Source: a virus. Taken from it: a DNA stretch of 36,078 nucleotides. The stretch covers positions 1 through 36,078 of IMG/VR virus record IMGVR_UViG_3300025102_000106, one strand, 5' to 3'. Below are positions 22,082-33,274 of the stretch, in pieces (within the stretch, counting starts at the first letter, position 1; every line of letters begins with the position of its first letter). The notes beneath the pieces are model-generated. The model had not been told where the DNA came from. It saw nothing but the letters and a program-made list of their open reading frames with translations, and searched no databases. The translations under genes and the position numbers were made by a program.

Positions 22082-22756
22082 TTAGAGCTTCTTCCAAGTC
22101 GCAGGAGAAGGTATATTATGTTCAGATTTAATACCTTCTTTCATGGTCAACATTATATCTCCTGATATAGATATTCGAGGCACGTCTTTTGTGTTCTTTC
22201 CAGTTTCATGAAACATCATAGATGGAAATATAATTACATTACCTGTCTCTGCAGGATACTCAGCTTTACCATAATTGTTCTGATCCCACTCTGTAAAGTA
22301 TGGATCTCTCTTTGGAATATTTAATCCTACCTTATGTGCATCGTCATCAAGTAAAAAAAGATTACCTTGTTCATGGGCTTGTGGGTAATAAACAAAACTA
22401 AAGTGACTACTCATATGTCGATGATAAGAAATAAATTGTTCTTTAACAGATAAGGTAGCCCAAGACTTAGTTATATATATTTCAAACAAATCTAAGTTAT
22501 ATTTTTGTGCAGATAAACAACCTCGTATTACTTTAGATAACTCTGTATATAATTCTTTAAATCTTTTATCTTTGTGAAGATTATCATCAATAGATTGTAA
22601 TTCTTTTGGTTTTACATCTGTAGTTGTTGAGTATTGAGAATTAGTTGGAGTAATATCTCTTAGTATTATAGGTACAATTTTTTTGTTAATATTTTCAAAA
22701 TTTTCTAACTTAGTAATGTATATAGGATAACCAAACCATTTTGATATATTTGCCAT
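22082..22756 (-). CDS. 2OG-Fe(II) oxygenase, sixth copy outside the cassette
   Basis: A 224-aa putative non-haem iron dioxygenase. The double-stranded beta-helix core shows ISYHRHMSSHFSFVYY (candidate iron ligands H112 and H114), TGNVIIFPSMMFHETGKN (H183) and VPRISISGD (R194, 2-oxoglutarate binding). This is the pattern of the phage PF13759-type family, with HxH in place of HxD. It lies alone between the gp10-like tail protein and a Gly-rich adhesin, not with the other oxygenases. Substrate unknown. The full ligand set suggests an active enzyme. Confidence 0.82.
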   Translation of the reverse strand: MANISKWFGYPIYITKLENFENINKKIVPIILRDITPTNSQYSTTTDVKPKELQSIDDNLHKDKRFKELYTELSKVIRGCLSAQKYNLDLFEIYITKSWATLSVKEQFISYHRHMSSHFSFVYYPQAHEQGNLFLLDDDAHKVGLNIPKRDPYFTEWDQNNYGKAEYPAETGNVIIFPSMMFHETGKNTKDVPRISISGDIMLTMKEGIKSEHNIPSPATWKKL

Positions 22757-22767
22757 AAGGCACTATA

Positions 22768-23703
22768 TTAATTTACTCGTAAAAATCTATACCTAACTTC
22801 TCCATTTCCACCTGCAAAAGCAGTTTCTCCTGTACTGCCAATATTTTGTGCACCACCTCCACCACCACCAGAACCTCTTGTACCAGCAGTTGCTGCGGGT
22901 CCACCTATACCACATCCATTTCCACCAGATATATTGCCAGCATAAGAGTCAGCACCGTCAGAACCAGCAATTTGACAGTTGTCTCCTCCACAGTTTCCGT
23001 TATTATCACCAGCAGCTCCATTACCAGATTGATTAAATGTTCCAACTGGTCCTGATGTTAAAGTTGTTACTGCTTTAGTTGATCCGTCACTATCTCTAAA
23101 ATTTCCTGATGTCACAGCTGAAGCATTTATTGTAGCTGATCCAGCAGTTCCAGCAGTATTTGTTCTTAAAGGTCCTTGAACTCCACCACCTGTACCACTT
23201 GCTCCACCACCTGCACCTAAAGTAAATATAGCTCCAGTTGAAGATCCAGATAGTGTTGTGTTTGTTCCAGCACTTCCAGTTTTTGGTTGACCAAAGTTTG
23301 CAGTTTGATTTCCTGGAGATCCACCAGATCCTATCGAATAAGATAGTGTTTCACCTTCAGTTACGGTAAAAACTTTATCTGATACATATGCACCAGATCC
23401 ACCACCTGCCCCAGAGGATTCACCACCAGCTTTGTCATAACTTACTCCACCTGCAGCTCCACCACCTCCACCAACAGCAGCTTGTATGTGAATTGCGTTA
23501 GCTCCTTCAGGAACTGCAAAGGTTCCTGATCCTGAACTTAATGTTTGAATTGAAGTTGCTTGAAAAGCTGCAAATACTAATTTCCAAACACCAGATACTT
23601 TTCCATATATTTCATCTGCTTCTTGCCAAGTACCTGATACTTTGCCATATGCATTATCTATTTCTTCAAATGTTCCTGAAACTTTAGCATAGGTATTAGC
23701 CAT
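22768..23703 (-). CDS. Gly-rich tail fibre/adhesin with YxKVSGTW repeats
   Basis: A 311-aa protein. The first 40 residues contain three copies of a YAKVSGTF/YGKVSGTW/YGKVSGVW unit, about 14 residues apart, which may be the virion-attachment part. A beta strand region (TFAVPEGANAIHIQAAVGG) leads into a long Gly-rich domain with GGGGG and GSGGGGGGAQ runs, closing with NGEVRYRFLRVN. Gly-rich domains of this kind form polyglycine-type lattices at the tips of fibres in several phages. The C-terminal strand resembles the IVIIRYKFQ ends of the three fibres at 28499-33274. AGGAG precedes the ATG. Likely receptor-binding. Confidence 0.75.
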   Translation of the reverse strand: MANTYAKVSGTFEEIDNAYGKVSGTWQEADEIYGKVSGVWKLVFAAFQATSIQTLSSGSGTFAVPEGANAIHIQAAVGGGGGAAGGVSYDKAGGESSGAGGGSGAYVSDKVFTVTEGETLSYSIGSGGSPGNQTANFGQPKTGSAGTNTTLSGSSTGAIFTLGAGGGASGTGGGVQGPLRTNTAGTAGSATINASAVTSGNFRDSDGSTKAVTTLTSGPVGTFNQSGNGAAGDNNGNCGGDNCQIAGSDGADSYAGNISGGNGCGIGGPAATAGTRGSGGGGGGAQNIGSTGETAFAGGNGEVRYRFLRVN

Positions 23704-24423: not shown

Positions 24424-25090
24424 CTTCTGTCCAAGTGTTAGAAACTCCTTTATTTACTTCAGTCCATGTGTTGGTCACATCTGGATTTACGTTAGACCAA
24501 GCTGTTATTAATGGACTATTAATTGAAGCCGTCATTTGTATACCTGTAACCAAAACATCTACTCCAGGAACAGCTGTTACACTACCAACAGAAGTTGCTG
24601 CAGAAATTCCTGTTAAGTTAACTTCATTAACTAATTCAACTTGTGCTTCTCCAAGTAATAATGTGCTTTGAACACCGGTTACACTTACGTTTGCATCTCC
24701 TGTAACAGTTGGTATTGCACCAGCTGTTATTGATAAATCATGCTCAGTTACAATAACACTTACATTACCATCAGCACTTACAGAATAAGTACCAAGTGAT
24801 AAGCTTAATTGAGATCCTGTAACCGATACTGTTGCATTACCTACAAGAGATTCTTCTCCCATAGACATTGTTAATTGAGATCCTGTTACATTAACAGGTG
24901 TATTAATTGCTGTAGTTGAATTACCTATTGTTCCTGTTAATTGAGATCCTGTTACATTTACATTTGCATTTGCAGTGACAGTTGAAGCACCAATAGAACT
25001 AGTTAATTGTAAACCTGTAACGTTTACATTGACATTAGTTCCTCCTAAAGAAGCTATTGGTGATTGTGATATAGCTGTAATACCTAACAT
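24407..25090 (-). CDS. Beta-repeat virion/fibre protein, 227 aa
   Basis: Built from five to six tandem repeats of about 22-25 residues with the core VNVTGSQLTxSxG (for example NVNVTGSQLTGTIG, PVNVTGSQLTMSMG, TVSVTGSQLSLSLG). They are followed by more divergent copies and a Trp-bearing C-terminal pair of TNTWTEV units. The start MLGITAISQSPIASLG is common in podovirus structural proteins. The repeats should stack as a beta-solenoid-like shaft. AAGGA lies about 9 nt upstream of the ATG. The gene begins directly after the terminator-like hairpin of the oxygenase cassette. Confidence 0.72.
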   Translation of the reverse strand: MLGITAISQSPIASLGGTNVNVNVTGLQLTSSIGASTVTANANVNVTGSQLTGTIGNSTTAINTPVNVTGSQLTMSMGEESLVGNATVSVTGSQLSLSLGTYSVSADGNVSVIVTEHDLSITAGAIPTVTGDANVSVTGVQSTLLLGEAQVELVNEVNLTGISAATSVGSVTAVPGVDVLVTGIQMTASINSPLITAWSNVNPDVTNTWTEVNKGVSNTWTEVDKAA

Positions 25091-25104
25091 ATAATATAAT
25101 CCTT

Positions 25105-25142
25105 AAAAGGAGACAGGGAGTATGTGGTGGTGCCCTGCCTCC
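25105..25142 (-). terminator. Factor-independent terminator after the oxygenase cassette
   Basis: On the minus strand GGAGGCAGGG (25142-25133) pairs with CCCTGTCTCC (25118-25109) as a 10-bp stem with a single G-U pair and a 14-nt loop. TTTT (25108-25105) follows. The stem is strikingly GC-rich against AT-rich surroundings. It lies right after the stop of the last oxygenase gene and before the next fibre gene. Confidence 0.75.
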
Positions 25143-25156
25143 ATCTAAGAATTATA

Positions 25157-25777
25157 TCATCGCTTAAACCATGAAGGAAGACCTAGATGAGGTCTTTTAT
25201 CAAACATATTCTCTTTTGCACCTGGTGTTTTACGATTATTATAATGTAAAAAAACTTGTACACATTCTTTACCTTTAAATTTATTTCTCCAATGCTCTAG
25301 CTCACAGCCAGAATAAACTAACATATCTCCTGGTTTTAAATCTACCTTAATGCCTTTCTTACCTATTTCTCCAGATGGCTCCAAGTATATTGGCCAATCA
25401 TCACCACCAAGATTCATAGTCGTAGATATTTCACAACTAAACCTATCTTTATGTCTTTTTAGTTCATCACCTTTTTTATAGATTCTTGCATAGGTATATG
25501 CAGGATATAATTTAAGTCCTGTTGCTTTTTCCATATCTGGTAAACACTTAAGTAGTAATGTCTCCATAGCCATATTAGAATACTGACTATATGTATTTGG
25601 TATTTGTTCGTCCTTTCCTTCATAGTACCCAATGATAGTTTCAAATGGTGAAAAGTATCTACGCTCTCTACATGTATCATATACTTGCTTTTGCATACAA
25701 AAATAGTTTGCAATAAAAGCTGCTAAATCTTTTGATATTGCTTGACGAATAACTGTATATTTTTTCTTTTTAAACAT
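25157..25777 (-). CDS. 2OG-Fe(II) oxygenase (prolyl 4-hydroxylase-like), cassette gene 5
   Basis: A 206-aa dioxygenase when started at ATG 25777. A longer reading to 25843 would need a TTG start deep within the upstream gene and is unlikely. Motifs: ELKRHKDRFSCEISTTMNLGG with iron ligands H109 and D111, VDLKPGDMLVYSGCELEHWRN with H162, then CVQVFLHYN. The HxD...H set is complete and the KPGDMLVY/EHWRN pattern is characteristic of P4H-like phage enzymes. The start overlaps the preceding oxygenase by 8 nt. It is the last gene before a strong terminator. The substrate is unknown; neighbouring fibres are the obvious candidates. Confidence 0.88.
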   Translation of the reverse strand: MFKKKKYTVIRQAISKDLAAFIANYFCMQKQVYDTCRERRYFSPFETIIGYYEGKDEQIPNTYSQYSNMAMETLLLKCLPDMEKATGLKLYPAYTYARIYKKGDELKRHKDRFSCEISTTMNLGGDDWPIYLEPSGEIGKKGIKVDLKPGDMLVYSGCELEHWRNKFKGKECVQVFLHYNNRKTPGAKENMFDKRPHLGLPSWFKR

Positions 25778-26402
25778 CTTTAGCCATTTCTTTTGGCACC
25801 GCTTGTATATTCCAATGTATGAATCTAAAAGGTTCTTTACCAAAATCTACTGCAAATTCGTGTTCTAAAAATCCTGGAAATATAATTAACGTACCTGGTG
25901 TGGGCTTAAAGTGAATTAACTCTGATCCACTCCACACACCTTTTTGGTTTGGTTTCATTTTTAATTTAGTAGCTCTTGCTCCAGTACGAGGTTCGTGAAA
26001 TATTGGATATGATGTTTTATCACTACACTTTAAAAAGTAAAATCCTGATACGTGTTGGTTCCAATGTATATGTGCTGAATGATGACCACCACCTTTTTTA
26101 GCAAACTCTTGTACCCACATCTCACTAAACATAGTTGTGTATTGCTGCATATCGTAACCTTGATGATCTAAATACTCCCAAGACTTTTGACCAATGTAAT
26201 TTCTAAAATCTAAAAAATCATTATCAGCTGTAAGCGGTGTTGAGTGATATGATCTCCCAAAATCACCGTGCTCTTTAATGAAAGTTTTCTCTCTTGTTCT
26301 TGCATCTTTAATATATTTATTAGATGCTTTGTTTAATGATTTTACAAACTCTGGTTTTTGTTCTGACCAAATGGTCGTGTTAAAGTAATTATTTAAAAAC
26401 AT
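25770..26402 (-). CDS. 2OG-Fe(II) oxygenase (PF13759-type), cassette gene 4
   Basis: A 210-aa protein. The core shows HSAHIHWNQHVSGFYFL (candidate ligands H111 and H113), then YPIFHEPRTGAR, then PTPGTLIIFPGFLEHEFAVD (H181), then PFRFIHWNIQ (R193 for 2-oxoglutarate). That is the HxH...H...R layout of the phage oxygenase group also found at 22082-22756, although the two copies differ strongly in sequence. The start codon shares a base with the stop of the previous oxygenase gene, so production of both is coupled. Confidence 0.86.
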   Translation of the reverse strand: MFLNNYFNTTIWSEQKPEFVKSLNKASNKYIKDARTREKTFIKEHGDFGRSYHSTPLTADNDFLDFRNYIGQKSWEYLDHQGYDMQQYTTMFSEMWVQEFAKKGGGHHSAHIHWNQHVSGFYFLKCSDKTSYPIFHEPRTGARATKLKMKPNQKGVWSGSELIHFKPTPGTLIIFPGFLEHEFAVDFGKEPFRFIHWNIQAVPKEMAKDV

Positions 26403-27031
26403 TATTTAAAAGGCCTTCCTAAATGCCAAACAACAAGACTATATCTTGTGCCAGCTGTTACTGGTTTAACTCTGTGCCAAACAAAAGAAGGAAAAACAAT
26501 AATAGAACCCTTAGGTAATATCTCTTTTGCTTTTCTTAAATGTTGACTTTCATCTCTCATATGTGGATCATAGTTTCTAAAATCAAATTCTAATTCACCA
26601 CCTGTGTATTCTGAACCATCTGTTAATTGACAGGTCATAGATAATTTTCTAATCATACCTTTTTCAGGTCCTTCTTTTTCATAAGGTTTATCCCAACCAT
26701 CACAATGCCAATCATAATATTGATTGTGTTTATATTTTGTAAACTGACAAGATTCAGATCTTTCCCAATCAAAGTTCCAACCAGCCATTTCATTTGCTCT
26801 ACGAACATAAGGATGTAATTCTTTATATATCCAAGTATCATTAAGCCATACTAGATCAGATTTTCTTTTTCTTTGTAAATTTTTAATTTCTTCTTTATTT
26901 AATTTTCTATCACCATAACCACCCGTTCTAGCCATCACTTCTTTTTGTGAATTTGCATAAGCTATTACATCATCACAAAACTTTGGTGTAAGCACACCAC
27001 TAAAATACCAATAATAATTAGTTAAGTTCAT
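26402..27031 (-). CDS. 2OG-Fe(II) oxygenase (PKHD-hydroxylase-like), cassette gene 3
   Basis: A 209-aa protein with the clearest motif set of the cluster: YYDWHCDGW (H109, D111), KLSMTCQLTDGSEYTGGELEF, KGSIIVFPSFVWHRVKPV (H186) and GTRYSLVVWHLGRPF (R196). The GGELEF/FPSFVWHRV/RYSLVVW series is characteristic of PKHD-type prolyl/peptidyl hydroxylase relatives (PiuC-like). Length and motif spacing are normal. It overlaps cassette gene 2 by 14 nt and shares a base with cassette gene 4. Confidence 0.9.
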   Translation of the reverse strand: MNLTNYYWYFSGVLTPKFCDDVIAYANSQKEVMARTGGYGDRKLNKEEIKNLQRKRKSDLVWLNDTWIYKELHPYVRRANEMAGWNFDWERSESCQFTKYKHNQYYDWHCDGWDKPYEKEGPEKGMIRKLSMTCQLTDGSEYTGGELEFDFRNYDPHMRDESQHLRKAKEILPKGSIIVFPSFVWHRVKPVTAGTRYSLVVWHLGRPFK

Positions 27032-27500
27032 AATTAAAATTTATTACCACTCTCACATCTTTATCTGTTTGAATTTGTGCTCTATGTTTTTTATACGCAT
27101 CAAATATAACTATTTGATTTTGAATACATTTTACTTTTTTGTCTTCAAATTCTGTAAAACCATTGTTATTATTAACATAATAAATAGCTGTTTTATGTTT
27201 TAAATCATCAGTAAACTTATCTACATGCCAACTACAATAAGAGGGTTTTTTAAAACAAAGATTAGCTCTAACGTGTAATACTTTTTTAGCCTTTAATTTA
27301 TATAAAATAGGTTCTATTAAAAATGTTTCATCTGAATTTTTTTTACCATCTAAGACAAAAGTATGACCCATAAAAGATGAATCTTTTTTACTTGTTGAAA
27401 CTTGATGTGGAAAATAATACCAAGGAAAACTTTCATGTAAAAGAGTTTTATAAATTTTGTCTGAATAATTTTTATCTATAAAATTTTTATATATATTCAT
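27018..27500 (-). CDS. 2OG-Fe(II) oxygenase, short form, cassette gene 2
   Basis: A compact 160-aa dioxygenase: YCSWHVDKF (H92, D94), KTAIYYVNNNNGFTEFED, QNQIVIFDAYKKHRAQ (H139) and VRVVINFNYEL (R150). All four expected catalytic positions are present despite the short length. The family resembles small phage 2OG oxygenases that consist of the beta-helix core with few added helices. Both ends overlap neighbours by 14 nt, supporting coupled translation. Confidence 0.86.
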   Translation of the reverse strand: MNIYKNFIDKNYSDKIYKTLLHESFPWYYFPHQVSTSKKDSSFMGHTFVLDGKKNSDETFLIEPILYKLKAKKVLHVRANLCFKKPSYCSWHVDKFTDDLKHKTAIYYVNNNNGFTEFEDKKVKCIQNQIVIFDAYKKHRAQIQTDKDVRVVINFNYELN

Positions 27501-27990
27501 ATGTTATAGTCTGTACAAAATTTAAACTATCTTTTTGATTATTGGTTAAATAATACATATTAGTTGATGGGAACATAATAAATTTATTATTTTCTAATGA
27601 TATATCCCAACTTCTACCTTTACGTCTGTTATCTTCAAAGTGTATTCGAACATTACAATCTTTGACTTTTACACCATATAATAATGTAAAGTCTGGAGAG
27701 TTACGTAAATCTACTGGATCAATATTTAATAATGGAATTGTAGTTTCGCTAGGTTTATAAATATTACCCCATGTTTCTTTGTTAATTAAATTGAAACCAT
27801 ACTCAAGAGAAACGTGATCTCGTATGTAGGTGTTTAACATATCCCAAGTTCGTGAAAATGGAAAATCTTTGTTTTGAATTACTGATTGTAAGATGTCACC
27901 TGATAATTTATTTCGGTCAATGTCCCAATTTTTTGGCATTTCCACATCGCCAAAGAATAAACTTTGTTCACTTAAAACCTGCTTTTGCAT
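27487..27990 (-). CDS. Putative degenerate 2OG-oxygenase-like protein, cassette gene 1
   Basis: A 167-aa protein at the head of the cassette. The C-terminal part follows the beta-helix layout of its neighbours (SWDISLENNKFIMFPSTNMYYL, then LNFVQTITYEY). The distal His is replaced by Tyr (NMYYLTNN), no HxD is seen in the expected region, and the Arg that binds 2-oxoglutarate is missing. It may be a catalytically dead partner, a binding protein, or an unrelated beta-barrel. The gene begins 10 nt after a promoter-like -10 box and has no clear Shine-Dalgarno. I am sure it is a gene and only moderately sure of the fold. Confidence 0.55.
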   Translation of the reverse strand: MQKQVLSEQSLFFGDVEMPKNWDIDRNKLSGDILQSVIQNKDFPFSRTWDMLNTYIRDHVSLEYGFNLINKETWGNIYKPSETTIPLLNIDPVDLRNSPDFTLLYGVKVKDCNVRIHFEDNRRKGRSWDISLENNKFIMFPSTNMYYLTNNQKDSLNFVQTITYEYI

Positions 27991-28000
27991 ACCACCACCA

Positions 28001-28029
28001 TATATAAATTATGCTTTAGAGTCTGTCAA
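28001..28029 (-). promoter_or_regulatory. Sigma70-like promoter for the oxygenase cassette
   Basis: Minus strand TTGACA (28024-28029), an exact -35 consensus, then a 17-bp spacer and TATATA (28001-28006). The -10 ends 10 nt before ATG 27990. Together with the terminator at 25105-25142 it brackets the five-gene cassette. The -35 lies inside the last codons of the preceding gene. Confidence 0.55.
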
Positions 28030-28458
28030 ATCCCAAGTTGTGTTATCTTCATTCCAGACGTAAGACCAAGAATGAGTTTCAGCTGTATTTTGTGAAGTCT
28101 GTTCTTCTGTTAATGCTGGAGCGTCACCGATTGGTGATTTCCAAGAAGCTGAATCATTATGTTTTACCCAAGATGCATATGGTTTTTTAGGCCAGAAGAT
28201 TTGATCATCCTCATCCCAAGTATAACCTATACCTGCGTAATTTCCTCTAAAAGGTGTGCCACCATCATTATGTTGATTACCAGATGTATTGTATGAAGTT
28301 TGAATCCACATTTGTGCAGGCCAATTATTGTGTGTTTCTAAATATTGTTGACCTACTGATTCATCTTCAACACCATCAGCGTTTTCCATATCTTTGTTAT
28401 CAAGTGTTAATACTTGAATAACTTTTCCGTTCGCTCCGAGTTTTGCAAAATGTGCCAT
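28009..28458 (-). CDS. Conserved marine-phage virion-type protein, 149 aa
   Basis: Starts MAHFAKLGANGKVIQVLTLDN and contains QMWIQTSYNT, FRGNYAGIGYTWDEDDQIFWPKKP and SWSYVWNEDNTTWDL. This is a well-spread cyanophage and pelagic phage protein found next to tail fibres, usually listed as structural or hypothetical. The RGNYAGIGYTWDEDDQIF segment is the family hallmark. It is soluble and Trp-rich with acidic patches. A clear AGGAG lies upstream of the ATG. Its exact role, possibly fibre-associated, is unknown. Confidence 0.75.
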   Translation of the reverse strand: MAHFAKLGANGKVIQVLTLDNKDMENADGVEDESVGQQYLETHNNWPAQMWIQTSYNTSGNQHNDGGTPFRGNYAGIGYTWDEDDQIFWPKKPYASWVKHNDSASWKSPIGDAPALTEEQTSQNTAETHSWSYVWNEDNTTWDLTDSKA

Positions 28459-28498: not shown

Positions 28499-29992
28499 CT
28501 ACTGGAATTTGTATCTTATTACTACTATACCAGAACCACCGTCACCTCTACGTCCTCCACCACCACCGCCTTGATTAACTGATCCACTGCACCCAGTTGT
28601 AGGACTAGGTTTACCATCTCCTCCACCACCAACACCGCCTGCATTAGTTCCTGGATTTTGTTGAGCCCCTCCACCACCACCTGCAAAATATCTACCTGGA
28701 TTAGGACCACCTTCTCCATAAGTTGGTGCTTGAGGAACTGAACCAAATATTGTTGTTGGTGCTCCTGCACCTCCTGGAGTTCCACCTGGAGTTCCTATAC
28801 TTGTATCTGCTGCACCTGAACCTGCACCACCGCCACCACCAGAACCATTATCTGCTGTTCCATAAGTACCGTGACCTCTTCCACCTGCATTTCCTTGTGG
28901 AGGAGAGACTGGAGGAGTATTTCCTGCACCTCCGTTTTGATGTGCTGTACCTGGTGGACTTCCTGGACTTGGAGCTGGAAAATCATAACCTGGTGCACCT
29001 GCACCTGATCCACCTGGAGCATTAGTTGAAGAAGTAGATGCTGGAGTAGCATTACCACTCGCTCCACCACCAGCTGATGTTATTGTTGAAAAAATTGAAT
29101 TTGAGCCTCTTGATGCACATCCTGATGGAGTCCCTGATCCACCAGCACCGACTGTAATTGGAAATCCACTTACAGAAAGAGGTATAGTTCCTGCACAACT
29201 AACATTGGTTCTAAAACCACCAGCACCACCTCCACCATAATTAGATCCTCCACCTCCTGCAACTACTAAATAATCTGCATTTGCTGGTCGTCCAGCAGGT
29301 GCAGAATTTCCAAGAGATGAAACACAAAAAGTACCTGGACCTGTGAAAACGTGAATTTTGTAATTACCACAAGTTAAAATAGCATTACCACCTGTAGCAG
29401 CAGTAAATGTTGGCTTTGGTACATCTGATTCAGTAGCAGCTGCAACTGATTGCCAGCCTTTTGTTGAATCGCCATAAACTAAAGTTATTGCTTGACCTTC
29501 TGTTGAGATTACTGCATCAGCATCTGTACCAGAAATAGGTTGACTATTTCTTCCAATAGTTAAGTTGTTTGTGTCAAAAGTATTTGCATAATCTTTTAAA
29601 GCTACAATATCTCCAACACTTGGAGAACTAGGTAGTGTCATTGTTACTGCACCACTTGTTGTGTTTATAAAGTAACCTTCTCCAGATACTGCTGTAAAAT
29701 CTCCTGTTTTAATACTTGTCTGCCAATCAACTGAACCTGCTCTACCAAAACCTGATTGACTTGCTCCACTTGCAAGAGAAACCGTATCACCAGAAGCACC
29801 TAAAGTTATTGTAGTCCCTGATTGAGAAATTATGCTACCACCATCAGTTGCTTTTAATGCATTTGATTTTAAATCACCATTAACTGTTACTGGAACACCT
29901 GCTGTTACCGATACTGAATCTCCAGAATCTCCAACAGTTACTGTACCACAATTTGTTCTTGGACTTATTTTATTTACTTTTACTTCACTCAT
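28499..29992 (-). CDS. Gly-rich tail fibre, paralogue A
   Basis: A 497-aa fibre. An N-terminal module shared with the next two genes includes IISQSGTTITLGASGDT (54-70), GEGYFINTTSGAVTMTLPSS and TGNYKIHVFTGPGTFCVSS-like strands (C208 and C223 region). After residue about 240 comes a long Gly-rich domain (VVAGGGGSNYGGGGAGGFR) with the Pro motif TPPVSPPQGNAGG and a closing strand GGSGIVVIRYKFQ. The Gly-rich part is typical of fibre tips that touch the receptor. Codon use there gives long spurious open frames on the other strand and in another frame. Confidence 0.82.
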   Translation of the reverse strand: MSEVKVNKISPRTNCGTVTVGDSGDSVSVTAGVPVTVNGDLKSNALKATDGGSIISQSGTTITLGASGDTVSLASGASQSGFGRAGSVDWQTSIKTGDFTAVSGEGYFINTTSGAVTMTLPSSPSVGDIVALKDYANTFDTNNLTIGRNSQPISGTDADAVISTEGQAITLVYGDSTKGWQSVAAATESDVPKPTFTAATGGNAILTCGNYKIHVFTGPGTFCVSSLGNSAPAGRPANADYLVVAGGGGSNYGGGGAGGFRTNVSCAGTIPLSVSGFPITVGAGGSGTPSGCASRGSNSIFSTITSAGGGASGNATPASTSSTNAPGGSGAGAPGYDFPAPSPGSPPGTAHQNGGAGNTPPVSPPQGNAGGRGHGTYGTADNGSGGGGGAGSGAADTSIGTPGGTPGGAGAPTTIFGSVPQAPTYGEGGPNPGRYFAGGGGGAQQNPGTNAGGVGGGGDGKPSPTTGCSGSVNQGGGGGGRRGDGGSGIVVIRYKFQ

Positions 29993-29999
29993 AATTTAC

Positions 30000-31760
30000 C
30001 TATGTTTGAAACCTATATCTTATTATAACAATACCTGAACCTCCAGAATTACCATTACCATTAAAATTAGCTCCACCACCATTACCTGAATTTGTAGGAC
30101 CTGCTGGAGAACCTGGATTACCACCGTCACCACCGTTTGCACGTTTTACAGGACTTCCATTAATTGAAGAAGTTGCACCATTTCCAGATCCAGTTGAAAG
30201 AGCTGATCCTCCATCTGCACCAGGAATAGGATTACCTGGACTTCCTTGAGGTGGACTAACCGGAGGTGTATTTCCTGAGCCTACCGAACCACCTCCACCT
30301 CCTGGTCCTGAATAACCTGCTCCTCCTCCTGAGCCTCCTGGATTACCATTTCTAGATGACTCTGTGCCACCATATCCATACCCAGAAGCTCCACCACCAC
30401 CGCCAGCTGATGTAATAGATGAGAAGACTGAATTACTTCCATTACTTCCTTTACTAGGAAAAGAACTACTTCCACCACCGCCACCACCAACTGTGACTGG
30501 GTAAGGCGATACTGATACAGGTAAAGCTGAAACACCTGAGCCCAAAGGACTTCTTGAATAGCACCCTGAAGCTGCACCAGAGGATTCTCTATAACCTCCA
30601 GCACCACCTCCTCCTGATGGGTCACTGGTTCCTGATTTACCACCACCGCCACCACCAGCTACTACCATATAATCTACGGTGTTTGAACCTGCAGCATTAC
30701 CTGCTGAAGATACGCAGAAAGTTCCAGGGCTTGTAAATGTATGAATTTTAAAATCTCCAGAGGTTGTAACTGTTCCACCTGTTGCTGCAACATATGATGC
30801 ATCTGGATTAACTGTAATTGAAAAAGCTCTGTCTGATGTAGCTCCTGTTTCAGTTACTGTAATTCTAACTGTAAAATTAGAAGTTGTTGAAGTAGATTGT
30901 GCAGTAGCAGTTCCAACAAAAGCACCTGTCGATGAATTAAGAGTTAAACCTGCTGGTAAACTTCCTGATTGAATAGAATAACTTACTGTACCAAATGTAC
31001 TTGTACCTGTTACAGGAGATAAATTTGCATTTGGATCTGCTCTTTCAGAACTTCCTGCGATTGAACCTAAGGATCCTGCTGCAGTAGTAAAAGTAATTGT
31101 TAGAGGTGCTATTGGTCCTGAATCTCCAGCACTTGATACTAACCAACCTTGAGTAGCACCTGAATAAGTTAATGTTGTTGCTTGTCTATTTGCAGTAACA
31201 CCTTGTCCTACTGTTCCACCTTCAATTTTTTCTCCAGATTGTGGAGAAAGAATAATAGCATTTGTATTTGCATTTGATACATAATCTAAAATAGTTACTG
31301 ATTCTCCTGCAACCCCTGTTGGTAAAGTTACTGTTACTTCATTCGAAGATGTATCAACAAAATAACCTTCACCAGCACCTGCATTAAAATTAGCAGTCTT
31401 TGGTGTAGTTTCCCATTGGACACCAGCACCTAAATCGTTAGTAGCACCAGAAGCTAATTGAATAGTATCTCCACTTGCTCCAAGTGTAATAGTGGTTCCT
31501 GATTGACTTATAATTATTCCTCCGTCAGATGCTTTATAACTGTTAGATCTAATATCATTACCAGGAACAGAAACAGTTTGACTTGCTCCACCGACCGTTA
31601 CTGCAGTACCACATTTTGCAAGATAAGTGTTGTTACTTGTATCCTTAATTGTGTCTGCTTTATAAACCTCAGCTGTCACTGTATGTGTTGAACCACATCT
31701 AGAGATAACTGCGTTATCATCTTGGTCTGTTATATTATCTACTTTTATTTTACTTGCCAT
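30000..31760 (-). CDS. Gly-rich tail fibre with Ig-like (He_PIG) domain, paralogue B
   Basis: A 586-aa fibre. It has an extra N-terminal segment (about 45 residues) before the shared module IISQSGTTITLGASGDT and GEGYFVDTSSNEVTVTLP. Residues about 220-325 form an inserted Ig-like domain: VSYSIQSGSLPAGLTLNSST, GAFVGTATAQ, FTVRITVTETGATSDRAFSI, which is the He_PIG pattern. Then come FKIHTFTSPGTFCVSS and the Gly-rich tip with TPPVSPPQGSPGN, ending GGSGIVIIRYRFQT. The Ig insertion is absent from the two flanking paralogues, showing modular exchange. There is no Shine-Dalgarno; translation may be coupled to the upstream gene, which ends 2 nt away. Confidence 0.82.
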   Translation of the reverse strand: MASKIKVDNITDQDDNAVISRCGSTHTVTAEVYKADTIKDTSNNTYLAKCGTAVTVGGASQTVSVPGNDIRSNSYKASDGGIIISQSGTTITLGASGDTIQLASGATNDLGAGVQWETTPKTANFNAGAGEGYFVDTSSNEVTVTLPTGVAGESVTILDYVSNANTNAIILSPQSGEKIEGGTVGQGVTANRQATTLTYSGATQGWLVSSAGDSGPIAPLTITFTTAAGSLGSIAGSSERADPNANLSPVTGTSTFGTVSYSIQSGSLPAGLTLNSSTGAFVGTATAQSTSTTSNFTVRITVTETGATSDRAFSITVNPDASYVAATGGTVTTSGDFKIHTFTSPGTFCVSSAGNAAGSNTVDYMVVAGGGGGGKSGTSDPSGGGGAGGYRESSGAASGCYSRSPLGSGVSALPVSVSPYPVTVGGGGGGSSSFPSKGSNGSNSVFSSITSAGGGGGASGYGYGGTESSRNGNPGGSGGGAGYSGPGGGGGSVGSGNTPPVSPPQGSPGNPIPGADGGSALSTGSGNGATSSINGSPVKRANGGDGGNPGSPAGPTNSGNGGGANFNGNGNSGGSGIVIIRYRFQT

Positions 31761-31762
31761 AA

Positions 31763-33274
31763 TTATTGAAATTTGTACCTTATTATTACTATACCTGATC
31801 CACCATTAGAACCTGTATCTGAACTACCATTAGTATATTGTCCTCCACCACCGCCACCACCAGTGTTGGTTGTTCCAGCAGCTCCATTAGCTCCACCATC
31901 TGGGCCTCCACCTCCTTTTCCACCACCACCTGAACCTCCAGGTGCGCTTGGACCACTTGTTCCAAAAGAAGGACTTCTTGATCCTCCTCCACCACCACCT
32001 GCATATGTTACTGGACTTCCTGTAATTGAATTGGCTGTACCATTTCCACCAAATCCCCCTCTGTTAGGAGTTGGAGAACTTCCACCTGTTGCTCCTGATC
32101 CTCCTCCACCACCACCGTGTCTTATACCTGATGCAGGGGAAGGTGCTGATGGACCACCAGGATTTCCTTGAGGTGGACTTACGGGAGGAGAATTTCCTGA
32201 TCCTCCAAGGTTTGCTCCACTACCATCTGGTCCAGATCCACCACCACCTCCTCCAGATCCTCCTGATCTTCCTGTATTATCTCCAGGTCCTGGACCATCA
32301 CCGCCACCGCCACCACCGCCACCACCTGCTGAAGTTATTATTGAAAAAATTGAATTTGATCCTGAGTTACCAAAATTATTTGATTGAGCTGTACCACCAG
32401 CACCAACTGTAATAGGAATACTACCAGGTACAACAGGTATTCCTGAACAAGAGGATGGATAATTTGTTCTGTGACCTCCTCCAGCTCCACCACCACCTGA
32501 CACTGCTCCACCTGCTCCACCACCAGCAACAACTCTGTAGTCTACTACTGCTAAACTTCCAGATCCAGAACTTACACAAAAAGATCCTGGTCCTGTGAAT
32601 GTATGAATTTTAAAATCACCACAAGTTGCTATTGATCCTCCAGTTGCTGAAATAAGTTCTGGTGCTGGCTCTCTGTCACTTAGTTCACCACTACTTACAG
32701 TTTTCCAACCCTTAGTACCATCAACATATACAAATGTCATACTTATACCTGAATTAGATATAGTTATATCTGAAGCACTTCCTTCAATGTTAGAACTATT
32801 TCTAGCTACTGTAATATTATTTGATTCTGCTGTGTTTGCATAATCTGATATAGCAACAATATTACCAGCACTTGGTGAGGATGGTAAAGTAACTGTTACA
32901 GCTCCACCTGTTGTGTTTACAAAATATCCTTCTCCGTTTGCTGCTGTAAAATTAGATGTTTTAATACTTCCTGTTTGCCAGTCGACAGTACCTGTTCTAC
33001 CAAAACCTGATTGTGATGCACCTGATGCAAGAGTAATGGTATCTCCACTTGCACCTAATGTAATAGTCGTGCCAGATTGACTGATAATATTACCAGCATC
33101 TGATGCTTGTACAGCATTTGTTTTTACAACATTACCTGAAGCAATAAGATTTGCTGCAGTTGCGTTTCCTGTAACTGTTGCACTTCCTGGAACGTTTACA
33201 CTGGTGTTGCATTTACCAACAGTTAATGTTGTTCCGCATTGTGGCTCAACTGTGTTTACTTCTATCTTACTCAT
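31763..33274 (-). CDS. Gly-rich tail fibre, paralogue C
   Basis: A 503-aa fibre with the same plan as its neighbours: N-terminal region (CGTTLTVGKCN), IISQSGTTITLGASGDT, GEGYFVNTTGGAVTVTLPSS, FKIHTFTGPGSFCVSS, then a Gly-rich tip with SPPVSPPQGNPGG and ending GGSGIVIIRYKFQ. It is the closest relative of paralogue A (same module order, no Ig insertion). Its start shares a base with the stop of the cupredoxin-bearing gene upstream. Probably one of several receptor-binding fibres or a co-assembling set. Confidence 0.82.
   Translation of the reverse strand: MSKIEVNTVEPQCGTTLTVGKCNTSVNVPGSATVTGNATAANLIASGNVVKTNAVQASDAGNIISQSGTTITLGASGDTITLASGASQSGFGRTGTVDWQTGSIKTSNFTAANGEGYFVNTTGGAVTVTLPSSPSAGNIVAISDYANTAESNNITVARNSSNIEGSASDITISNSGISMTFVYVDGTKGWKTVSSGELSDREPAPELISATGGSIATCGDFKIHTFTGPGSFCVSSGSGSLAVVDYRVVAGGGAGGAVSGGGGAGGGHRTNYPSSCSGIPVVPGSIPITVGAGGTAQSNNFGNSGSNSIFSIITSAGGGGGGGGGDGPGPGDNTGRSGGSGGGGGGSGPDGSGANLGGSGNSPPVSPPQGNPGGPSAPSPASGIRHGGGGGGSGATGGSSPTPNRGGFGGNGTANSITGSPVTYAGGGGGGSRSPSFGTSGPSAPGGSGGGGKGGGGPDGGANGAAGTTNTGGGGGGGQYTNGSSDTGSNGGSGIVIIRYKFQ

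Follow-up and report, generated by a model that had tools for sequence, protein, structure and literature searches.

What kind of genetic unit lies among the tail-fiber genes of this virus, how are its two ends defined, and what might its enzymes act on? The DNA considered here is IMG/VR virus record IMGVR_UViG_3300025102_000106, positions 1 to 36,078 (this whole stretch to be referred to as the window). As an initial annotation of the window had reported, five overlapping open reading frames on the minus strand run from 27990 to 25157, in the order P5-P4-P3-P2-P1 (to be referred to as the cassette). Comparison with related phages suggests that this region is, on balance, a self-contained, exchangeable slot for tailoring enzymes in the tail-fiber region of HTVC023P-type phages of SAR11. 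What the annotation had observed proves largely right, and its interpretation partly so (see below).

The window belongs to a pelagiphage (phage of SAR11) of the HTVC023P type. Its structural genes match those of Pelagibacter phage HTVC023P (MN698239, 60.9 kb) and the environmental genome 023Pt_psg01 (MW574966, 59.8 kb), and the DNA identity to these genomes across the cassette region is 80-81%. Among pelagiphage groups, this type has been reported as the one of highest abundance, with ~7.6% of viromic reads (PMC12753301). The cassette region is flanked by glycine-rich fiber proteins (PF21722).

The two ends of the slot, a promoter on the 5′ side and a promoter-like element with an RNA hairpin on the 3′ side, are kept among relatives while the genes between them are exchanged. 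The contents amount to 27 protein families in 150 loci, most of them similar to 2-oxoglutarate (2OG)-Fe(II) oxygenases. The slot exists in many variants, of which the exact set of five genes in the window is one, and the commonest gene set is P5-P3-P2-P1. P4-like genes occupy the P5-P3 interval, the P2-P1 interval, or both, and a scan with P5 of locus L078 as the query found only 4 loci. The families that are not 2OG-like include a tryptophan halogenase (9e-111), a carbamoyltransferase (1e-45), a sulfotransferase (2e-11), and a JmjC/cupin protein; Pfam families represented in the slot include PF00685, PF04820 and PF16861. The inserted halogenase gene is in locus L067 (family 18), the sulfotransferase gene in L127 (family 10), and the carbamoyltransferase gene in L122 (family 25).

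A second type of cassette (to be referred to as the alternative type) has different first genes, and most cassettes of this type have TTGACA near the end of the upstream gene p6 and a GTGG-rich start. Its last gene is unrelated to P1 and is of the PF13759 type where examined; when this gene served as the query, 67 loci had the hairpin behind it. Searching IMG/VR by the loop sequence of the hairpin alone added 31 hairpin loci, not all of them on new contigs. All 31 follow an oxygenase gene, which is P1 in 26 loci and an unrelated gene in 5. These comparisons give good support to the earlier proposal of a discrete cargo unit among fiber genes: the contents are exchanged, and the promoter persists with swapped upstream DNA or an unrelated first gene. 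They also lend good support to the idea of a set assembled for distinct substrates or steps.

The cassette promoter (28001-28029, minus strand) has TTGACA at 28029-28024, a 17-bp spacer, and TATATA at 28006-28001. The exact TTGACA and its spacing had been noted before, and the hexamer is kept across relatives. The -35 element is inside the last codons of p6, a fiber-accessory gene (28009-28458, minus strand; phrog_7759, 2e-31). A scan of the window alone shows no excess of promoter-like sites in the region over chance (57 found, 62 expected), and the significance of the promoter comes instead from a comparative codon test. The Leu-Thr codons that hold the -35 element are TTG-ACA in 85 of 91 p6 genes, compared to 4.3% expected from the use of Leu and Thr codons in the rest of these genes. 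Of 113 loci, 100 retain TTGACA, including loci in which unrelated non-coding DNA replaces p6, and it also precedes the unrelated first genes of alternative cassettes. This is strong comparative evidence that TTGACA is a -35 element under selection. A sigma-70-type promoter in the 3′ end of p6 would then start a short operon of one to seven small genes, mostly encoding 2OG-Fe(II) oxygenases of a single domain, with gain, loss and replacement of these genes between relatives.

The 3′ edge carries a conserved RNA hairpin (25091-25160, minus strand), part of which had been described as a terminator with a GC-rich 10-bp stem and a T-run. The stem (25142-25133 with 25118-25109) and the TTTT after it are real, and they form only the inner part of a hairpin of ~26 bp with a predicted energy of -34 kcal/mol. 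The outer, AT-rich stem pairs 25160-25144 with 25107-25091. The loop is CACCACCACATACT (14 nt, 25132-25119), and the loop sequence CACCACCACATACC is nearly invariant among relatives. There is one strong match to the hairpin per genome. HTVC023P (MN698239) has both the 5′ and the 3′ element, with the start of P5 at 42548 and the hairpin at 44919-44991. A search of Rfam over 24900-28200 gave no relevant match up to an E value of 5.

In an alignment of 52 distinct relatives (alignment A1), pairing is kept in 93% of the cells, and compensatory changes are found at 17 of the 18 stem pairs, including seven pairs beyond the U-run. Cells with double changes number 105, compared to 29±6 after shuffling and at most 29 with slid partners. 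There are 119 G-U/U-G cells and 12 A-C/C-A cells. On this comparative evidence, the hairpin is selected as a sense-strand RNA, because compensatory changes are present and G-U is far above A-C. By parsimony on a P1 tree, the reoriented pairs 14-65 and 15-64 have changed many times (~14 and ~17, respectively), counts that recombination may inflate.

Three other explanations of this element were rejected. A DNA cruciform does not account for the excess of G-U over A-C cells, which is unlike any strand-symmetric DNA constraint. A leader peptide within the hairpin (MEAGHHHILPVSF and a stop) has its frame broken by one-base insertions, in both arms and in many relatives. Sequestration of the Shine-Dalgarno sequence of the next gene is not general, as this sequence is outside the stem in L146 and L115.

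The hairpin is located directly 3′ of a conserved promoter-like -10 element. In the window, the stop codon of P1 is fused to an extended -10 of the form TGnTATAAT (TGATATAAT, 25151-25159, minus strand), probably the promoter of the downstream tail genes. The P1 stop codon is TGA in 80 of 121 loci, compared to at most 12 of 136 in P5, P3 and P2. Alternative cassettes have a TTGATA-(15-18)-TATAAT-like sequence at the same place before the hairpin in 36 of 42 distinct loci. We read the 3′ edge as a promoter followed by an RNA hairpin rather than as a terminator, because the U-run is short and a -10 element is directly before the hairpin.

A plain unit from promoter to terminator, with the 3′ element as an intrinsic terminator, is the reading of the initial annotation. 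The GC-rich 10-bp stem followed by TTTT fits it, and so does the position of the element, which coincides with the end of the cassette wherever it is present. However, the U-run is only 3-5 nt long (4 in the window) and variable (TTTTAA, TTTATA, TTCTAA), and the U-tract of ~6-8 directly after the stem of an intrinsic terminator is absent. The strong covariation of pairs past the U-run would be needless for a terminator, and the promoter-like -10 is directly 5′ of the element. With its short, variable U-run and its covariation past that run, the element was not retained as a plain terminator, and we consider this explanation unlikely.

In the preferred reading, the operon would end with the second promoter element, which is joined to the stop codon of the last gene, and then the hairpin. 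The position of the hairpin, its long stem, and the neighboring promoter fit a role in the separation or protection of two mRNAs. Most likely, the mRNA of the oxygenases would have its 3′ end at the hairpin, and the tail mRNA would carry it as a 5′ hairpin; a processing site for RNase III is one example of such an element. The ~26-bp stem, in sense RNA, is within the length of ~20 bp or more that characterizes RNase III-type hairpins. In phage T7, promoters between late genes are followed at once by a long hairpin that is an RNase III site. In comparison, the promoter here is of the host type, the loop is conserved, and there is a single site, at the cassette end.

The loop is complementary to a motif in the leader, GGTGGTGGT (27991-27999, minus strand), directly before the start codon of P5. 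The predicted energy of the duplex with the loop is -13.7 kcal/mol for cassette leaders and -2.8 kcal/mol for other gene starts, and the complementarity is retained even with an unrelated first gene. The hairpin might thus be a riboregulator, its C/A-rich loop pairing with the G/U-rich site where translation of the first cassette gene begins and so repressing the operon, either inside a single long transcript or in the form of a small RNA made from the second promoter. Matching variants are found on the two sides, with 12 nt in L078 (ATTGAGGTGGTA/TACCACCTCAAT), GATGGTATG/CATACCATC in L051, and TTGGTGG/CCACCAA in L146. Moreover, a near-invariant loop calls for more than separation or protection of mRNAs.

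On the other hand, pair-specific covariation between leader and loop is significant by permutation in P5-type loci only (p 0.006), compared to 0.54 in alternative-type loci and 0.14 overall, and a kissing interaction of the two was not kept as proven. L012, L137 and L267 retain the loop despite a poorly matching leader, and the GGTGG may be a mere ribosome-binding site. The fiber genes also supply dozens of equal targets, as their glycine codons (28499-33274 and 22768-23703) yield stretches of GGTGGTGG complementary to the loop; these are possible off-target or real pairing partners. Regulation through the loop is a tentative idea that we hold as a minority view.

The persistence of both edges around swapped contents could also mean that they are mainly recombination boundaries, short homologous edges for the exchange of fiber and cargo modules. 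In favor of this, the hairpin type changes frequently on the P1 tree, and the leader and the loop have a common motif, in inverted orientation. However, compensatory stem changes and G-U in excess of A-C call for selection that acts on pairing in the RNA rather than on identity of the DNA, and we judge this alternative decidedly unlikely.

The five genes had been described as sharing a "beta-helix" oxygenase plan, four with complete ligands and one degenerate. The correct term for the fold is the double-stranded beta-helix (jelly roll). P3 (26402-27031, minus strand, 209 aa) resembles PKHD and prolyl hydroxylases, with matches to PF13640 (1e-14), the PKHD hydroxylase PiuC (E 1e-4), and the PRK05467 series of NCBIfam. 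Its sequence reads HCD...H...R, and both the facial triad and the 2OG-binding Arg are present. In P4 (27018-27500, minus strand, 160 aa), an accessory oxygenase-like protein whose position in the cassette varies, the HxD...H...R residues are conserved among 24 relatives (alignment A4), and the matches are to phrog_274 (1e-36, labeled endonuclease V) and phrog_81 (8e-4). P2 (25770-26402, minus strand, 210 aa) matches PF13759 (2e-12) and TIGR02466 (4e-15, under the curated cut-off of that family). It has HxH where HxD is usual, followed by H and R, and the same HxH is found in other PF13759 members of the slot. By family match, P2, P3 and P4 are members of the 2OG-Fe(II) oxygenase superfamily. 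When the profiles of P2, P3, P4 and P5 are compared in pairs, the probabilities are low, in agreement with the view that the set did not arise by recent tandem duplication.

P1 (25157-25777, minus strand) has 206 residues after its start is corrected to the ATG at 25777, which makes it equal in length to the annotated gp67 of HTVC023P. Its H109-x-D111...H162 is invariant across nine phage homologues, including cyanophage ones, down to 37% identity. Searches of P1 against Pfam and NCBIfam gave no match of any kind, no canonical 2OG-binding Arg is seen in its sequence, and its profile matches no solved structure. The P1 profile also has no link to the other cassette families in the pairwise comparisons, a link to P4 being confined to an out-of-frame N-terminal extension and discarded as an artefact. 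Four of five P1 homologues have no Pfam family, and in the remaining one the second domain matches PF13640. We consider P1 a probable 2OG-Fe(II) oxygenase on the strength of its invariant residues.

In PHROG and GenBank, P1 is labeled "ferrochelatase" (phrog_2954, phrog_3531) and P4 "DNA endonuclease V" (phrog_274). Both appear to be misannotated oxygenase-like proteins. The ferrochelatase label is not supported for P1, which has no Pfam or NCBIfam family and has the HxD...H motif instead. The label is due for revisiting, and so is the published heme and iron story that rests on it.

P5 (27487-27990, minus strand, 167 aa) has no family match in profile searches. It is highly conserved, with a mean column identity of 84% over 70 sequences (alignment A2). 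Its AlphaFold2 (AF2) model, with a predicted local distance difference test score (pLDDT) of 83.8, has the jelly-roll fold of prolyl hydroxylases. The model is similar to PHD2/P4H (Foldseek, E ~2e-5) and to the viral collagen prolyl hydroxylase 5c5t (VIA, Z 13.3), with Z scores of ~13 for prolyl hydroxylases of viral and human origin, and of 13-14 once related proteins are counted. P5 has no complete facial triad (NxD...Y). There is no HxD...H among the invariant columns of the 70 sequences, and Tyr146 appears to occupy the position of the distal His. It is reasonable to read the modeled P5 as a conserved pseudo-oxygenase, perhaps a partner subunit, and it is not filed here as an enzyme.

The ligand count of the initial annotation is therefore borne out for P3 and P4 (complete) and P5 (degenerate) and needs correction for P2, with its HxH, and P1, which has no canonical Arg. 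Oxygenase folds are indicated by family for P2, P3 and P4, by the fold without ligands for P5, and as probable only for P1.

The virion adhesins are the best candidate substrates of these enzymes, because the slot is among fiber genes, with glycosyltransferase-like genes downstream in the same region, P3 and P5 resemble prolyl hydroxylases, and a proline-containing motif is found in the fibers. Three glycine-rich fiber proteins (28499-29992, 30000-31760 and 31763-33274, minus strand; PF21722) are encoded upstream of the cassette and have the motif PPVSPPQG. In the longer form GNTPPVSPPQG, the motif accompanies P5-type cassettes, and no PP form was observed next to cassettes of the other type. 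The enzymes would most likely hydroxylate these neighboring fibers, and the slots of relatives would add sulfotransferase, halogenase or carbamoyltransferase steps. Hydroxylation, like sulfation, halogenation and carbamoylation, is a tailoring reaction. Such tailoring would diversify the receptor-binding surface. If this is true, it is a chemical route to adhesin diversity, located beside the receptor-binding fibers and acting on top of sequence variation. Collagen modification in mimivirus is a virus-encoded hydroxylase system. The collagen prolyl hydroxylase of a Chlorella virus (PDB 5c5t), to which the P5 model is similar, is another virus-encoded hydroxylase; in comparison, the proteins here are from a phage, and their substrate is putative.

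Repair, metabolic or host-surface roles are possible for the slot enzymes. The oxygenases might be auxiliary metabolic or nucleic-acid enzymes, for 2OG and iron metabolism or AlkB-like repair or demethylation, that are merely located in a variable region. Wittmers et al. 2022 (PMC9599517) counted them, together with a "ferrochelatase" partner, among auxiliary metabolic genes, Clokie et al. 2010 (PMC2984593) relayed for Syn9 the idea of a repair role like that of AlkB, and the P4 profile weakly matches the N6-methyladenine (N6mA) demethylase 8haz (E 0.004). However, the placement beside fiber genes is constant, sulfotransferase, halogenase and carbamoyltransferase genes co-occur, and the supposed ferrochelatase, as described above, has an oxygenase-like motif and no Pfam match. 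An auxiliary role appears rather unlikely to us.

Several observations weigh against an exchangeable slot for fiber tailoring with the ends described here. The -10 of the cassette promoter matches TATAAT at only 4 of 6 positions, and relatives have TAAAAA or TATATT. The outer stem of the hairpin overlaps the second -10 element, and transcripts from the second promoter would lose part of it. HTVC027P and HTVC008M have oxygenase genes that run on the opposite strand and lack the hairpin, which is thus not generally required for such genes. The AF2 model of P1 failed (pLDDT 36), and P1 is not confirmed as a 2OG fold. Finally, the association with the fiber motif is confounded by clade and is kept as suggestive only.

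It was already known that HTVC023P-type phages have clustered oxygenase genes and that oxygenases are found in host-recognition islands. Wittmers et al. 2022 (PMC9599517) described 2OG-Fe(II) oxygenase and "ferrochelatase" genes in HTVC023P-type pelagiphages and noted their clustering, and these are the same genes in the same phage group. In that study the genes are nearby "although not adjacent", and P1 is a ferrochelatase, whereas here they form an overlapping operon and P1 looks like an oxygenase. The conserved ends, the pseudo-oxygenase, the second exchangeable cassette type, and the RNA hairpin go beyond that description. Mizuno et al. 2014 (PMC3909814) found Fe(II)-dependent oxygenases to be frequent in hypervariable host-recognition islands of marine phages; in the present case, the variable region can be broken down into a slot whose 5′ and 3′ elements are defined. 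In the open-licence papers searched, we found no description of the conserved edges, an exchangeable slot with non-oxygenase tailoring enzymes, the pseudo-oxygenase or the hairpin RNA, and nothing on point for hydroxylation of phage tail fibers or for pelagiphage hairpins. As a conserved element outside Rfam, the hairpin is a marker of the cassette edge and poses a concrete RNA question.

Runs of up to eight 2OG genes and a JmjC gene, P1-type genes included, are found in T4-like marine phages (HTVC008M, Mosig and S-CREM1). These runs have other positions and strands than the cassette, and the hairpin was looked for in them and not found. In HTVC027P, three genes on the opposite strand (gp72-74, 13292-14953 of L416) are at the corresponding place without the hairpin, one of them annotated as a 2OG oxygenase. 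An RNA-seq series exists for this phage (PRJNA1253180).

A sixth oxygenase, X6 (22082-22756, minus strand; PF13759, 2e-14; phrog_81, 6e-33), missed by the initial annotation, is located outside the cassette. It lies further downstream in the same region, together with two glycosyltransferase-like genes. In the alternative-lineage loci L178 and L163, every glycine-rich fiber gene is paired with its own p6-like gene, which suggests that p6 is a fiber partner (chaperone or tip). A ferredoxin-like gene (1959-2615; phrog_3704, 1e-52) may be of interest alongside iron-dependent oxygenases. Another promoter-like site, on the minus strand at ~7366-7310, has TTGACA and then GTATAA ahead of AAAGGAGG, and is located in a gap beside a helicase gene of opposite orientation.

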